Virus record (IMG/VR): IMGVR_UViG_3300000224_000011
Span: 1-28,745 of that record
Strand: one strand, 5' to 3'
Length of the DNA: 28,745 nt
Source: a virus
Positions 3,111-26,819 of this stretch are shown piece by piece (the stretch's first letter is position 1; every line of letters begins with the position of its first letter). The notes beneath the pieces were generated by a model that had not been told where the DNA came from, ran no database searches, and saw nothing but the letters and a program-made list of their open reading frames with translations. The translations under genes were made by a program, and so were the position numbers.

Positions 3111-5255
3111 CTATTTAGATTTTTTAGGAATATAGTTAATATTTTGTCCATTTCCATCATAATTATTCCCAGAGGCCGCTGCTAAGTTGATATATTGTTC
3201 TGGACCATACTTAGAAATAAATTTCCCACCCCCTGATAATTGCTTGCCATTATAGTCATTTTGCTGTAATTGTGGAACAAAATCATGAATAGGTATAAAT
3301 GTGAATCCTGATACATTTATCATCATTGGCAATTCTTTTACTGATGGGTCAGTGAATATTTCTTTTTCGTTATCCCCTTGGTTAATATATTTAATATTCC
3401 CATTATCCGGGATTCCTATTTCCCATGGGCTCTCTGTTGGTACAGAATAATTAATTCCAGTCATAATTCCAACCTGTTCTTGAAGGTAACCACCTACTGT
3501 CAATGTAATTAAATTCCCCCTCATATACCCGGAATTTGAATAATCAGGAGCACAAACTGAGGATAAATAGTTTAATTTTTGGTACATAGGGATTAATTCT
3601 TGTTTTGATTGGGCAACTACAGTCCATCCTAAACTGATTTTTCTATCAAAACCCCCATATTTGTAAAATTGTTCTCCCCTACCCATAAACTTTTGACCTT
3701 TCCACTCTGCAGTAAAATTATCTGACATTTCGTCTATTATAGCTCTAAAGTGAATGTATGTTTTTTTAGTAGGGTTGTCATTATCTATTACCCCTATTCT
3801 AAATTTAACAAAATCATTTTTATCATTATCCGTTGTTACAGAATTAGATTGATATAAGGGAAAAGCATTAATTTTATCTAAAGCTTTTGTATAATATGAA
3901 TTGTCTTTTACGGTTAATGGAGTAGTACTATTAATTTCTTGTTTACCAATTGTATAACTTTTTAAATTTCCTCTTCTACCAGGATCACCTAAATTAACTC
4001 TTTGTTCAAAATTCTTTTTAGTATAATCTAAAGTATCAGGGATCTGTTGTGACCCACTAGGGGCGATTAATTTAGTAAATGATTCTTTTATTTTACCATC
4101 TTCACTAGTAGGAGTATAGTTTTCTATCTGACCCTGAGTAAAAACTTGTATTGGGGTTCTACCTCCAATTCCACTACTTAATTTACTAACGTTTGTTGTT
4201 AAATTTCCACTATTATATACACTGGGGCTAAAACTATTAGGGCTTATGACATCTTCGCTATTAAATAAAGTATCTAAATAGATAGCACTATATTTAGGGC
4301 TTTGACTTAATGCTGCAAACTTAATAGTAGCGCCGTATGCTCTTTGGATATCATCTATATTTTTATTCTTACCTAAGCCCGGAGTATAAACACTAGGGTT
4401 GTATAGTAAAGGAATTGATTGAGGTGCATTACCACGTCCAAATGGGTTTGGTAATGGTAAATTTTGTATTTTATTTTTACCAAAATTTTGTGTGTACTTT
4501 AATTCACTTTCTAAATAAGGGTTATTAACTCCCGTTCTTTGATCTAAAGGTACTCGAATTTTTGTTTTTCCTACGCCTAATATAGATCCAGGTCCACCAC
4601 CGTATTCAAATAAAACATTATCAGTTTGTTTGTTATTTATTTTTAGTAAAAGGGGTTCTAATCTACTTTTATTACCTTCATTTCCCCCTGTTGCTATTGT
4701 ATTTAAATAAGTAGGTAAACCTAAGATAGTATTACCGTCAGGAGAACCTTTAGTTGTAACTTTAATTGGGTTCCAACCTTGTTTATTTAAATGTATACCA
4801 AGAGTTCCTACCGCCGGTTGGGCAATAGTACTTAAAGGAAGATATAATCCTTGGTTTAAACCTATGTTACTTTTTATAAAATCTCCTATTCTTCCTACAA
4901 GTGATTGGGGGCTTTGTTCTGTGTTATTACCCCTATCTTCTACCCATTTTTCATATCCTTTTTCTGAATTCACATTTGTTAAGGATAGAATGTTTTGTTT
5001 TGCTATAAATAAAGGTCCAGATGGAGACTTAAAATCAAAAAACATTTTAGTTAATCTAGAAACGTCTTTTGCTATTATTCTGGGAAGTAATGACCCACCA
5101 CGTAATAGGAAGTCTGGTCCTCCTGTTTTTCCTAAATCGGAAAAACTATCAGGAATACTCCTACTTACATAAGGTTGACCACTTGATCCCCCTCCTATTG
5201 TGTCTTTACCATACCTTAAATCTTTAAGGTTGGTGGTCATATTAACTAATCCCAT
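3111..5255 (-). CDS. Tail/baseplate structural protein, possible tube-initiation or tube-cap protein
   Basis: 714 residues, no membrane segments. The N-terminal 100 residues hold a hydrophobic/basic patch (DFLLRGGSLLPRIIAKDVSR). The middle is Gly/Asn/Pro/Ser-rich and looks extended. The C-terminal 230 residues look like a folded beta domain: FVKFRIGVIDND, then HFRAIIDEMSDNFTAEWKGQ, GRGEQFYKYGGFDRKISLGW, SKQELIPMYQKLNYLSSVCA, LTVGGYLQEQVGI and FTFIPIHDFVPQLQ. The run of 'Y-x-Y-x-G-x-x-R-x-x-x-x-x-W' followed by 'EL-x-P-x-Y-x-KLNYL' is reminiscent of tail-tube-like domains in T4-like baseplate genes such as gp48 and gp54; I infer this and cannot prove it. ATG at 5255 is chosen; an in-frame ATG at 5240 (MTTNLKDLRYG) is an alternative. 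It sits 7 bases after the 96-residue gene and 3 bases before the gp53-like gene. Confidence 0.6.
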   Translation of the reverse strand: MGLVNMTTNLKDLRYGKDTIGGGSSGQPYVSRSIPDSFSDLGKTGGPDFLLRGGSLLPRIIAKDVSRLTKMFFDFKSPSGPLFIAKQNILSLTNVNSEKGYEKWVEDRGNNTEQSPQSLVGRIGDFIKSNIGLNQGLYLPLSTIAQPAVGTLGIHLNKQGWNPIKVTTKGSPDGNTILGLPTYLNTIATGGNEGNKSRLEPLLLKINNKQTDNVLFEYGGGPGSILGVGKTKIRVPLDQRTGVNNPYLESELKYTQNFGKNKIQNLPLPNPFGRGNAPQSIPLLYNPSVYTPGLGKNKNIDDIQRAYGATIKFAALSQSPKYSAIYLDTLFNSEDVISPNSFSPSVYNSGNLTTNVSKLSSGIGGRTPIQVFTQGQIENYTPTSEDGKIKESFTKLIAPSGSQQIPDTLDYTKKNFEQRVNLGDPGRRGNLKSYTIGKQEINSTTPLTVKDNSYYTKALDKINAFPLYQSNSVTTDNDKNDFVKFRIGVIDNDNPTKKTYIHFRAIIDEMSDNFTAEWKGQKFMGRGEQFYKYGGFDRKISLGWTVVAQSKQELIPMYQKLNYLSSVCAPDYSNSGYMRGNLITLTVGGYLQEQVGIMTGINYSVPTESPWEIGIPDNGNIKYINQGDNEKEIFTDPSVKELPMMINVSGFTFIPIHDFVPQLQQNDYNGKQLSGGGKFISKYGPEQYINLAAASGNNYDGNGQNINYIPKKSK

Positions 5256-5580: not shown

Positions 5581-7968
5581 TTATTGTACTTCGTATAACC
5601 CCATTGGAGCCATATCTGGTGTTTTTTTAATAAGTTGCGCTAATAGCGAATTAGTAGCATTCATGTCTGTTTTGCTATTTACAACGGTTTGACTTTGTCC
5701 TTGGTTTGCCATTTGAGAAGCGCCTGGGAATGCTACAAAATCATCATTTTTAGATAATTCAAATAATCCTCCTTCTTTTGTAGATACTTGTGTTTTACCA
5801 TCTGCAGGTGAATTAACATCTCCTACTTTACTTAAAGCACCAAAACCTGCTGCTAATACTACTGCTGCTGCTATACCACCCACAATAGGGGCTGCTAAAC
5901 CTCCTATAACTGTTGCTGCTAAAGCGGTAGATACTGCAGCAAAAGTTGCATAAGCAGCATATACAATAGCTAACCCAACAACTGCTTTCAATGCTTTTCC
6001 AACCATACCTAAGGGGCCGATCATATTGCTTATCCCTTCACCGATTTTCCCAGTAAGGTCCATAAGCATTTGGAAAGGTGTTATTATATAACCAACTATT
6101 TCTAACATACCCCCTAACATTTCAAACACCGGCATCATAGATTCACCTATCATTCCAAAAATTTCGTTTATCCTTTCAGTTGAAGCCGCCATTCTATCTG
6201 CTTGCCCCACTTGTTGCCTTAAACCCTCAATTCCTTCTTCTGCTAATTCTTTTTGTGCCTGCTCTAAACCAACTGCTTCTATTCTTTTATTTAATAATGC
6301 CTCGGTTTCAGCTGCTTGGTCTCCTGTAGCTCCAGCTAGTTGTTCTTGTACAAATAAGGTTTTTGCTAAATCTTCTCTACCCATACCCACAGCTTTAGCT
6401 AATGCTTCTTGCTGTATTCTATTCATAGCTGTAAATTCAGCGGCTGAACCTGCTTGTTCAGATATTTCTTTTGCTACTGTAGCTAGATCATTATTTAAAG
6501 CAGCTTGTCTTGCTTTTTCTAAATTTATGTCTTTACCTAAAAGTAATTCTGCTTCTAATTCATTTGAAATAGAACTTTCAAAATCAAGTAAACTGCCTGC
6601 TATATCATCTACTTTAGACATTTCCATACCTAAAGATTTTGCAGTTGCTGCAGCATCAGCTATTAACCCCGGGTTTTTACCCAAAGATAAGGTTGTTGCT
6701 GCAGATACTTTGCCTATATCTTTTAATAAATCTTTTTCATTTAATCTTACCCCTAAAGCCGTTGATGAAATTTTAGCTTGAGCCATATATTCACCTGTAA
6801 CATCGTTTAATGATTTACCCGTAGAATCTGATATTGCTTTTATGCCTAATAATTCTTCATTAGTAAACCCTGCCATATCTCTCATTTCAGTAAACTGAGT
6901 AAGCATTTCCTTACTAGGTTTTACACTAGTACCTAAGGCTTTGTTCATTTCCATCATGGATTCTGACATTCCTTTGGTACTAACAAACACATTACCACTA
7001 TCTACTGCAGCCTCCCTTAATTGGCCCCTCATTGCTAAGGCACTATCATAAGACATATTAAGGCCTTTAGCCATCTCGGAAGCAGCTTTATCACCTTCTA
7101 CCATAGCCGAAACTAGCTTTATAATCATAGCTACAGGACCTAAAGACTTCATAAAACTCTTTAACATCCCTTTAGCACCTGCAGCCATAGATGCACTATC
7201 TACTGCACCTTTAGAGAAACCACCTTTCATGTTCTTTTGGATGTCTTCAACAGAAGCTCCAGATTCTTTAAGGGCATCATCCATACCCATTCCTTCTTCC
7301 CTAAGTTTAGCATATTTGTCAGCACCAAACTTCCTCTTCTCCATATCAGCTGCTATACCTTCAGCTTCTTTAGCAGCAGCCCCAAACATTGGAGCAAGAC
7401 CTGAAAGTAATGGGATTTTATCTAGTACTTTTTCTATACCCCCAAACAGAGATACACCTTTAGCATTTGATATATTTTGTACTGTATTGTCTACTAACCC
7501 TAATTCAACTTTAAGTGCAATAGCACTATTAATTTGATCCTCTATACTACTTGCTAAATTTAAATTTAATTCTGCTCTAGTTGCATCTAAACCTGCTGAG
7601 TCCTTTATTAATTTTGATTGGACTTGCTTTAGTGAATTTATATTCTTAGTTACTGCTAATCTATTATCGTCTAATTTTTTAAGTGATCTAGCATTAGTTA
7701 AATCTTCTTTTCCTAAAGCTGAAAGATTTTCTGATATTTTAGATATAGAATTTGTTGCTCTAAGTATAGCAGATTTTTCTGCTTTTTGAAATTTTAATTG
7801 GGTTAGTTGGTCTTTTAAGACATTTGAAACATCTTGTTGTTCACTGGTGATAGCCTGATCTGTGGCTAGTCTATCTTTAGCTATCTTATTTTGCTCGGCT
7901 AATAAACGGTTTTGATCCGCTACTAGCTGCTTCATAGTTTTAGCATTATTTATTTGTTCACCAGCCAT
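5581..7968 (-). CDS. Tail tape measure protein (functional equivalent of T4 gp29)
   Basis: 795 residues. The first 170 residues are strongly coiled-coil (Lys/Glu/Gln/Asn-rich heptads from MAGEQINNAKTMKQLVADQN onward). The centre is Ala/Gly/Met-rich helix. A long hydrophobic stretch at about residues 660-711 (LKAVVGLAIVYAAYATFAAV and following) fits the membrane-interacting segment typical of tape measure proteins. The C-terminal tail holds GGLFELSKNDDFVAFPGAS, a motif I associate with tape measure proteins of marine myoviruses. The gene follows two tail-assembly proteins, the usual order. Tape measure length sets tail length: with about 1.5 Å per residue, 795 residues predict a tail near 120 nm, which is a rule-of-thumb estimate. 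Its own promoter word lies 12 bases before the ATG. Confidence 0.9.
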   Translation of the reverse strand: MAGEQINNAKTMKQLVADQNRLLAEQNKIAKDRLATDQAITSEQQDVSNVLKDQLTQLKFQKAEKSAILRATNSISKISENLSALGKEDLTNARSLKKLDDNRLAVTKNINSLKQVQSKLIKDSAGLDATRAELNLNLASSIEDQINSAIALKVELGLVDNTVQNISNAKGVSLFGGIEKVLDKIPLLSGLAPMFGAAAKEAEGIAADMEKRKFGADKYAKLREEGMGMDDALKESGASVEDIQKNMKGGFSKGAVDSASMAAGAKGMLKSFMKSLGPVAMIIKLVSAMVEGDKAASEMAKGLNMSYDSALAMRGQLREAAVDSGNVFVSTKGMSESMMEMNKALGTSVKPSKEMLTQFTEMRDMAGFTNEELLGIKAISDSTGKSLNDVTGEYMAQAKISSTALGVRLNEKDLLKDIGKVSAATTLSLGKNPGLIADAAATAKSLGMEMSKVDDIAGSLLDFESSISNELEAELLLGKDINLEKARQAALNNDLATVAKEISEQAGSAAEFTAMNRIQQEALAKAVGMGREDLAKTLFVQEQLAGATGDQAAETEALLNKRIEAVGLEQAQKELAEEGIEGLRQQVGQADRMAASTERINEIFGMIGESMMPVFEMLGGMLEIVGYIITPFQMLMDLTGKIGEGISNMIGPLGMVGKALKAVVGLAIVYAAYATFAAVSTALAATVIGGLAAPIVGGIAAAVVLAAGFGALSKVGDVNSPADGKTQVSTKEGGLFELSKNDDFVAFPGASQMANQGQSQTVVNSKTDMNATNSLLAQLIKKTPDMAPMGLYEVQ

Positions 7969-7992: not shown

Positions 7993-8244
7993 CTACTTAT
8001 AACTTGTTTTACCCTTATATGCTTTACTTGCTTCGGTAAATGCTGGGGTGTTAACTTTACCGTCAGAGTTAACTAGATTCTTGGTTGATGCCCCACTCTT
8101 TCCGGCATTTTCCATTTGTTTTTTTTCTTCAGCATAAAAATCTTTTATTTCTGAGTAGGTAAATTTTCTTAACCATATAGGCATGTTATATACCGTGTTA
8201 TAGTCATACCCACCTTTACCATGAAAGATTAATTGGTGAATCAT
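7993..8244 (-). CDS. gp51-like baseplate hub / tail assembly protein
   Basis: 83 residues, beginning MIHQLIFHGKGGYDYNTVYN and continuing MPIWLRKFTYSEIKDFYAEE. The 'FH-x-KGG-YD-x-x-TVYNMPIWLR-x-FT' block is one I associate with small proteins of T4-like marine phages annotated as hub-assembly protein gp51; the second half (GKSGASTKNLVNSDGKVNTP) looks flexible. Its position between the gp26-like gene and the tape measure gene is that of the second tail-assembly chaperone (T part of lambda GT). ATG at 8244 is preceded by CTTTTTAAA with no Shine-Dalgarno. The same frame is open upstream to 8301, through the T-run at the end of the preceding gene, so it may be translated partly as a frameshift extension of that gene. 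Family assignment moderate; gene reality high. Confidence 0.65.
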   Translation of the reverse strand: MIHQLIFHGKGGYDYNTVYNMPIWLRKFTYSEIKDFYAEEKKQMENAGKSGASTKNLVNSDGKVNTPAFTEASKAYKGKTSYK

Positions 8245-8275
8245 TTTAAAAAGATGTAAACGTATCTCGGGGGAG

Positions 8276-9007
8276 TTAGTCGTAGTCAGGCCAAAAAAAG
8301 TTTAGACCAATTGGAATGGTCACCTCCTCTCCATTATCCAAAATGTAGGATAGATTTACATCTGGTTGTGTTTTAGCAATATGGTCTCTAAATGCTCTAG
8401 AATCTCTAGCTAAAAACATATTATCTACAAATCCTCTAATGTCTTTCTTTTCTTCACTGCCATCTACTGATGTGATTAAATATTTTAATCTTGTAGTAAG
8501 GCTTGATGAATCTTCTTTATTGAGTTTTTTAAGACCTGCTACTTCTCGATCTATTTGTTTTTCTACTTTACCTGTAGCTAGTTGGTATGTTAAAACAGTT
8601 CCAGTAGCTGGGGTTGTAAAAGTAAATTCGTTTTTACCTGCTTCAAATTGCTTTTCATCAAATTCTTTGTTTTCTAAAGTTGACATATCTAAAACATAGC
8701 TTGTCCCTTTTACTGAGATTTCATAATCTTTACCATATCCTAAAATACGAGTAGCAATTAACAGTGCGTTTTTATCACCAACAATTAAGTCATCGATATT
8801 AATATCTTTATTTATAATTACAGACTTTAATAATTTTTCTAATACATTTCCTTTTTGGATAAAGGATTGATTAGAAAGGATATCTTCTTCCTTTGCTGTC
8901 ATGTATTTGATTTCTACTTTACCACTTGATAAGGGATTGTCTTTAGAATAGATTAAACCTTTTGACGGTAATTCTATTTCTTCGGTTGGGAATTTAAATT
9001 CACTCAT
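8276..9007 (-). CDS. Baseplate hub / tail assembly protein, gp26-like
   Basis: 243 residues. The N-terminus has FPTEEIELPSKGLIY at residues 5-20, then VEIKYMTAKEEDILSNQSF, the recognisable signature of the T4 gp26-type baseplate protein family (short acidic start, 'ELPSKG', 'IKYMTAKEEDIL'). T4 gp26 is 208 residues. By position, two genes ahead of the tape measure, it corresponds to the first tail-assembly chaperone of other tailed phages, which binds the tape measure before tube polymerisation. The protein ends in IGLNFFWPDYD; the two Phe codons plus the next T form a run of seven T at 8299-8293 that could cause ribosomal frameshifting into the downstream frame. The gap to the next ATG is 31 bases. 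Confidence 0.78.
   Translation of the reverse strand: MSEFKFPTEEIELPSKGLIYSKDNPLSSGKVEIKYMTAKEEDILSNQSFIQKGNVLEKLLKSVIINKDINIDDLIVGDKNALLIATRILGYGKDYEISVKGTSYVLDMSTLENKEFDEKQFEAGKNEFTFTTPATGTVLTYQLATGKVEKQIDREVAGLKKLNKEDSSSLTTRLKYLITSVDGSEEKKDIRGFVDNMFLARDSRAFRDHIAKTQPDVNLSYILDNGEEVTIPIGLNFFWPDYD
8293..8299 (-). other. Candidate ribosomal frameshift site (T7 run)
   Basis: Coding strand reads AAC TTT TTT TGG CCT GAC TAC GAC TAA in the gp26-like frame. A +1 (or -2) slip at the T-run gives TTT TTT GGC CTG ACT ACG ACT, which stays open for 19 codons and enters the ATG of the gp51-like gene in frame. The first stop upstream in that frame is at 8304-8302, directly before the run. A -1 slip instead reaches a TGA two codons later. 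Sequence feature certain; function inferred. Confidence 0.5.
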
Positions 9008-26149: not shown

Positions 26150-26554
26150 CTATTTTACTAAAAGTACAGCAGCTAATACCGCTACTACTCCAGCCCCTGC
26201 TGTTAATTTATTTTTAAACTTTTGTTTTTTTACTTCAAGTTTTAGTTTTTCATTTAACTGTTGGGAAAGTATAAGTTGTGACCCCTTTGTATCTAATATA
26301 GAGTTAAAATTATATATTTGAAAGTTAAGGTTATTAATAACACTATCTTTTAATATCATTTTATTTTCTAATAAAGAGTACTTTGTGTTAATTAAACTCA
26401 ATTCTTGTTTAAAGCTGTCCCCCGTTATTAAATCTTTAATTACTAGTCTGGCTATTGGTTTTTTTAATTGAATCGAGGTACTGTCTATAACGTTCTGTGA
26501 AAAACTGTTCAAGCTCATCACCCCCAAAAGAATCAACATTATTAACTTTCTCAT
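26150..26554 (-). CDS. Secreted coiled-coil protein with C-terminal membrane helix, outer partner of a spanin-like pair
   Basis: 134 residues. Residues 1-20 (MRKLIMLILLGVMSLNSFSQ) are a signal peptide with a Phe-Ser-Gln end, the style common in flavobacterial exported proteins; there is no lipobox cysteine. Residues about 50-112 are a coiled coil (LLENKMILKDSVINNLNFQI). Residues 114-134 (KNKLTAGAGVVAVLAAVLLV) form a C-terminal membrane segment. It overlaps the preceding membrane-anchored coiled-coil gene by 119 bases in another frame, the arrangement of lambda Rz/Rz1 spanin genes. Classical outer spanins are lipoproteins, so this would be a variant anchored by a helix, or a different envelope protein. 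Next gene is the terminase, 4 bases away. Function inferred from topology. Confidence 0.55.
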   Translation of the reverse strand: MRKLIMLILLGVMSLNSFSQNVIDSTSIQLKKPIARLVIKDLITGDSFKQELSLINTKYSLLENKMILKDSVINNLNFQIYNFNSILDTKGSQLILSQQLNEKLKLEVKKQKFKNKLTAGAGVVAVLAAVLLVK

Positions 26555-26819
26555 TTGTTTGTCTTTTTAATGTAACTATTTTACTATCTTGTTTACTAAT
26601 TTCTTGGTCTAATTTATTTATTTGACCATTTAAGGTATCAATTTCCAAGGTTAATTCTTCATTTATGTTATGTAAAGAATTAATTTTACTTTCTAATGCT
26701 TCTATTTTACTATTATACTCATTAATATATTCATCTTCATTTGAAGAGTACATATTAATTAAGTAGTAAGCACCAAAAAATACTATAGCAATATATAAAA
26801 ACCTTTCCTTAGATGACAT
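26436..26819 (-). CDS. Inner-membrane-anchored coiled-coil protein, inner partner of a spanin-like pair
   Basis: 127 residues. Residues 6-24 (RFLYIAIVFFGAYYLINMY) form an N-terminal membrane anchor with basic residues in front, so the rest should face the periplasm. Residues 34-95 are a regular coiled coil (YNSKIEALESKINSLHNINE and following). The C-terminal part has DSFGGDELEQFFTERYRQYL. The topology (type II anchor plus periplasmic coiled coil) is that of inner-membrane spanins (Rz-like). Its 3' third overlaps the start of the next secreted gene in another frame by 119 bases. The ATG overlaps the stop of the upstream gene by one base (TAATG). The lytic role is inferred; a tail-unrelated envelope function is possible. 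Confidence 0.55.
   Translation of the reverse strand: MSSKERFLYIAIVFFGAYYLINMYSSNEDEYINEYNSKIEALESKINSLHNINEELTLEIDTLNGQINKLDQEISKQDSKIVTLKRQTNEKVNNVDSFGGDELEQFFTERYRQYLDSIKKTNSQTSN

Follow-up and report, generated by a model that had tools for sequence, protein, structure and literature searches.

When the frame of one tail assembly gene gives way to that of the next, are two genes translated separately, or does one gene yield both proteins through a programmed frameshift? Here we address this question for the gp26-like and gp51-like tail assembly frames on the minus strand of a 28,745-nt stretch of viral DNA, IMG/VR record IMGVR_UViG_3300000224_000011 (hereafter the window). Comparison of its sequence with those of relatives leads us to propose, with high confidence, that the two frames constitute a single tail assembly chaperone (TAC) gene whose programmed frameshift would give two products.

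The junction and its predicted products

All features of the junction lie on the minus strand. The gp26-like open reading frame (ORF; 8276–9007) encodes the short form, TAC-N, of 243 amino acids (aa), and its 3' end reads AAC TTT TTT TGG CCT GAC TAC GAC TAA in the 0 frame. The putative slip site, TTT TTT TGG (8291–8299), contains a run of seven T (T7; 8299–8293). The downstream frame is +1 (or -2) relative to this ORF and begins ACT TTT TTT GGC CTG ACT at 8301. A +1-frame TAA at 8302–8304 sets the upstream limit of any shift, and the TAA that ends the short product (8276–8278) sets the downstream limit. From 8301 the extension frame is open for 19 codons up to an ATG at 8244–8242, and it runs on to a stop ending at 7993. 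Read as an extension (7993–8301), it would add a gp51-like C-terminal domain (TAC-C), conserved in 48 relatives, to give a fused product of 337 aa; within it, the linker from the 0-frame stop to the ATG (8247–8275) would be translated only upon frameshift.

The initial annotation had described the 3' end, the frame lying one base ahead, the stop at 8304–8302 and the open stretch from 8301 to the ATG at 8244 just as they are found in the sequence. Its proposal that slippage on the seven T would fuse proteins of about 240 and 100 residues is supported; the predicted short and fused products have 243 and 337 aa.

Conservation of the junction

Relatives were gathered from IMG/VR with three queries and supplemented with named phages. 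Including the window, 240 loci carry the junction, in 181 distinct versions, with gp26-like identities of about 39–99%. The frame offset is identical in every locus and every distinct junction (240/240 and 181/181), the linking frame contains no stop in any locus, and in all distinct junctions the 0-frame stop lies 5–8 codons past the first slip codon. In the 231 loci that contain its stop, the +1 extension has 66–115 aa; in the other nine it runs off the locus end. The conserved C-terminal domain is read in the -1 frame in 0 of 240 loci, which does not fit a canonical -1 frameshift (X_XXY_YYZ). The initial annotation had cautioned that 19 open codons can occur by chance, a caution contradicted by a junction present in 240 loci, far beyond chance. 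It had also named three signs that would speak against a slip: stops in the linking segment, a different frame offset and synonymous breaks of the T-run. None was seen, in the 240 loci, in relatives at about 39% identity and above, and in the 181 distinct junctions, respectively.

The slip codons are TTT TTT TGG in 143 of the 181 distinct junctions and TTT CTT TGG in 28; TTT CTA TGG and CTT TTT TGG occur in three each, TTT TTT TAC in two, and TTT CTT TAC and TTT CTA TTC in one each. Conservation of the T-run, which the initial annotation had put forward as a check, was borne out in part: T7 is kept in 145 of the 181 and broken in the others, yet UUU followed by a pyrimidine (UUU-Y) is present in all 181. 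The broken runs arise by Phe-to-Leu changes (TTT CTT, TTT CTA; CTT TTT), and the slippery UUU-Y stays. Codon usage at the site is equally constrained. Among 135 representatives at ≤90% identity, Phe is encoded by TTT in 132/132 cases at slip codon 0 and in 109/109 at codon 1, as against 77% in the rest of the gene, and the Pro that follows TGG is CCT in 135/135, as against 35%.

More distant homologues vary in this region. One of them, L084 (PQ819873.1), at 27% identity, has the +1 extension and no T-run; at about 3680–3727 it reads TTC TTT CGT CCC CGA TTT GAC TAA with the +1 extension open, and UUU-C or CCC-C could be its slip site. In two others, L085 and L248 (<30% identity), the +1 extension is absent. 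In L085 (LR756511.1), which is very distantly homologous and comes from a huge phage, a TAATG stop/start overlap at about 3769 takes the place of the +1 junction, so that the C-terminal part may belong to a coupled gene of its own. Of two scans, made with the distant queries LR756508 and a Streptococcus phage, the first returned nothing and the second one locus.

Direction of the shift

Frameshifts in tail chaperone genes are mostly -1, and that of Mu is -2. At the present junction the initial annotation had offered +1 or -2; the frame relation stands, and the two directions are not equal. A +1 slip allows perfect re-pairing of tRNA-Phe at UUU-Y in 181 of 181 distinct junctions, from UUU to UUU or UUC, both read by the same tRNA-Phe. 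A -2 slip as in Mu, with the tRNA-Phe in the peptidyl (P) site moving back two bases on the T-run, would reach the same frame and insert an extra Phe (GLNFFFGLTTTN), and -2 slips that resemble +1 do exist, GUU_UUU cases having been noted by PRFect. Such a slip re-pairs perfectly in 148 of the 181 junctions, the window's included; 29 junctions (TTT CTT) require a first-position G·U pair, and four (TTT CTA) offer no acceptable pairing. Because +1 accounts for every junction, whereas -2 fails or needs a G·U pair in 33, +1 is clearly favoured, and we regard a -2 shift as unlikely.

The homopolymer itself, conserved as T7 in 145 of 181 junctions, suggests another route to the same proteins, namely transcriptional slippage yielding mRNAs with one U fewer (or two more) that are then translated normally. 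Seven T is at the low end of the run length for transcriptional slippage, and 33 of the 181 junctions have no T-run longer than three and still keep both the frame relation and the domain. Such short runs speak against transcriptional slippage as a cause common to all junctions, and we consider it very improbable; a +1 slip during translation remains our preferred reading.

Extension or separate gene

Could the downstream frame instead be a gene of its own, initiated at the ATG at 8244, with the open 19-codon linker there by accident? The window and its closest relatives do carry this ATG in the extension frame, and the initial annotation had counted it against a fusion. The start is not conserved, however: the first 25 extension codons contain no ATG in 136 of the 181 distinct junctions, and no ATG, GTG or TTG in 106, so the downstream frame cannot in general be an independent gene. 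In the window the ATG encodes residue 20 of the extension and sits inside the first of three predicted helices (residues 10–26, 34–39 and 42–71), which begins upstream of it. Searches with the extension by tblastn matched Flavobacterium phage immuto, Microcystis phage Mel-JY01 and LR756508 from the first residue, upstream of any ATG.

The linker also bears the mark of coding selection. In the window's clade its ratio of nonsynonymous to synonymous polymorphism (pN/pS) is 0.44–0.55 in the +1 frame, compared with 1.3–4.5 in the 0 frame and 0.95–0.99 in the -1 frame; by this measure the linker is evolving as a +1-frame protein. Such selection, the lack of a stop in the linker in 240 loci, the starts missing from most junctions and the helix that spans the ATG all stand against two separate genes, an explanation to which we assign only a slight probability. 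That a sequencing or assembly indel split one gene, for which the error-proneness of homopolymer runs is the only point and no result here adds another, can be dismissed, since many assemblies contribute to the 240 loci and the junction is also present in the isolate-sequenced cultured phages immuto, Mel-JY01 and RM378; the variants without a long run already refute it.

In immuto (MW353176.1, 150607–150717), only a 36-aa "hypothetical protein" from an inner ATG is annotated inside TAC-C, an annotation that overlooks both the +1 fusion and the domain's first half.

Identity of the two products

TAC-N matched the profile PHROG_150 (baseplate hub) with an E-value of 1.2e-9, and PF12322 (T4_baseplate) matched 24 of 48 family members (best 1.3e-13); the window's gp26-like protein alone gave no PF12322 match. 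Structures were predicted for the two domains separately. The AlphaFold model of TAC-N has a predicted local distance difference test (pLDDT) score of 90.7, and structure matches in BFVD include T4-like baseplate hub assembly proteins. Among solved structures compared with VIA-align, the HK97 tail assembly chaperone 2ob9 ranked first (Z 4.7, root-mean-square deviation 3.5, 80 residues aligned), a match that is weak when taken alone; Foldseek against the PDB gave no significant match (2ob9 at E 0.65).

For comparison of both domains at once, a T4-like set was made by joining sequences artificially at the Phe-Phe pair. The fused window family aligned by hhalign with this fused gp51/TAC-NC set (98.2%, E 2.7e-13), colinearly over both domains and with coinciding Phe-Phe pairs; against T4 gp51 as a single sequence hhalign found nothing significant, only the T4-like fusion profile being so. 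These profile comparisons support placing the predicted products in the T4 gp26/gp51 family, that is, among the tail assembly chaperones TAC-N and TAC-NC. The T4 proteins were assigned as TAC-N/TAC-NC hub assembly chaperones by Vladimirov, Gautam and Davidson (2022), as cited in PMC10885494.

Search for stimulators

Just 5' of the slip site the window could form a hairpin, GACCA-UUCCAAU-UGGUC (8305–8321, minus strand; minimum free energy about -6.4 kcal/mol), which is suggestive only. Across 135 relatives the 24 nt before the slip site fold more strongly than synonymous resamples do (mean z -1.74), and across 49 clusters at 70% they fold more strongly than dinucleotide shuffles (-0.91 ± 0.21). 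A single conserved upstream hairpin was rejected, as the stem register varies and long stems are no commoner than in synonymous resamples. A downstream pseudoknot or hairpin was rejected as well, the signal being weak and diffuse (z about -0.5 to -0.95).

Three codons upstream of the slip site lies a Gly codon (8308–8306, GGT in the window) that is GGG in 52 of 100 cases among the relatives, compared with 8% elsewhere in the gene, and this enrichment may be part of a hairpin or of weak anti-Shine-Dalgarno pairing. GGGG, starting 9–10 nt upstream, is found in only 31 of the 135 representatives; being both scarce and wrongly spaced, it does not lead us to claim a Shine-Dalgarno-like stimulator. 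Slow decoding of UGG may also assist the shift.

Several observations weigh against our interpretation. The junction counts are phylogenetically correlated and hence are not independent events. The upstream hairpin signal is modest, and a search of the relatives found neither a strong, conserved structure downstream nor a stimulator of the Shine-Dalgarno type. To these may be added the weakness of the 2ob9 match and, from the preceding sections, the perfect -2 pairing at the window's own T7 and the ATG at 8244.

Proposed mechanism and gene neighbourhood

In the mechanism we propose, most ribosomes would stay in the 0 frame as far as the TAA at 8278–8276 and produce TAC-N. A minority would slip one base forward at UUU UUU UGG: the P-site tRNA-Phe would move from UUU to the overlapping UUU/UUC, GGC CUG would be read next, and the long form, TAC-NC, would result, with the junction ...GLNFFGLTTTN.... 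By analogy with lambda gpG/gpGT, the two forms, in a fixed ratio, may serve to coat the tape measure protein, the product of the gene just downstream, and to load subunits of the tail tube.

The order of genes in the window is sheath, tube, an 89-aa ORF, TAC-N, TAC-C and a long ORF directly downstream (5581–7968, minus strand; 795 aa). By position and length the last is a candidate tape measure gene and the presumed client of the chaperone; the syntenic gene in immuto carries the annotation tail tape measure protein. Elsewhere in the window, at 26150–26554 and 26436–26819 (minus strand), two overlapping ORFs in different frames recall nested spanin genes: the proteins they encode are small, hydrophobic at the N-terminus and coiled-coil-like in sequence.

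Comparison with other T4-like phages and known recoding systems

Homologous TAC-N and TAC-C domains, with a shift at the corresponding terminal Phe-Phe pair of gp26, are found in Prochlorococcus phage P-SSM2, Synechococcus phages S-PM2 and S-CRM01, Pelagibacter phage HTVC008M, Sinorhizobium phage phiM12 and Vibrio phage KVP40. In these six a canonical heptamer, T_TTT_TTC or T_TTT_TTT, sits no more than a few codons from the stop of gp26 and the extension follows in the -1 frame, whereas in the window's lineage the extension lies in the +1 frame at TTT TTT TGG, 5–8 codons before the stop. The six -1 phages (loci L256–L261) usually have an ATG soon after, and shift and re-initiation could both operate there. 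The TTT TTT TGG of the window and a +1 extension recur in Rhodothermus phage RM378, which aligns with the fused window family. PHROG_150 covers T4 gp51 from 3 to 281 and T4 gp26 from 10 to 236 only, which identifies the two as long and short form. T4 makes both from separate genes on opposite strands, without a frameshift, where the window's lineage would use one frameshifted gene.

We are inclined to believe that T4-like phages have recoded one homologous site, the Phe-Phe pair that closes the tail chaperone gene, along three routes: by a -1 shift on U_UUU_UUC in phages of the cyanophage type; by a +1 shift on UUU-Y in the window's lineage, immuto and RM378, where help may come from an upstream hairpin and not from a stop codon or Shine-Dalgarno element; and by replacement through gene duplication in T4. 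If so, the direction of a frameshift can evolve at a fixed site while both products persist, and a natural comparison is available of one protein site with -1, +1 or no frameshift. Standard annotation, as a "baseplate hub" gene followed by a small hypothetical protein, conceals one recoded gene in a large group of aquatic T4-like phages.

Frameshifting reportedly occurs in several T4-like groups, T4 itself using genes 26 and 51. The view in the initial annotation that the T4-like lineage offered no described case is outdated, as PMC10885494 and PMC12846349 cite such cases; the latter, citing Vladimirov et al. (2022), refers to poly-T -1 signals in TAC-N genes of T4-like phages. In a search confined to open-access papers, no +1 case was found described for T4-like phages. 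What is new here, as judged from sequence comparison, is a very probable and conserved +1 shift at the Phe-Phe pair, the position at which the cyanophages, the pelagiphage, phiM12 and KVP40 have a -1 heptamer and T4 has two genes. Shifts of +1 in tail chaperones are not new in themselves: they are annotated in SEA-PHAGES genomes, and the annotated phage shifts used by PRFect, nearly all in tail chaperones, supplied 350 forward and 2368 backward motif cases.

Further counterparts lie in three systems. The lambda tail chaperone gene, like others with a frameshift (Xu et al. 2004), is said to yield a short and a long form, gpG and gpGT, and the window's gene would do likewise. In SPP1, gp17.5* is the analogue of G/GT and likewise a programmed shift in a phage tail gene, but -1 at UUUUUUC; gp17.1* is +1, as here, but in the tail tube protein at CCCUAA. 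In prfB (release factor 2), a pyrimidine codon slips +1 in the P site (CUU_U), as proposed here, and TTTTTGA variants decoded by tRNA-Phe occur. There, the shift depends on a stop codon in the aminoacyl (A) site and, three bases upstream, on a Shine-Dalgarno-like element, whereas the A-site codon in the window's family is a sense codon (UGG, UUU or CUU) and conservation of such an element was not seen. Flavobacterium johnsoniae is reported to use Shine-Dalgarno pairing rarely, and +1 frameshifting on a sense codon without a Shine-Dalgarno helper, in relatives of a Flavobacterium phage, would be a variant of a mechanism known mainly from prfB.
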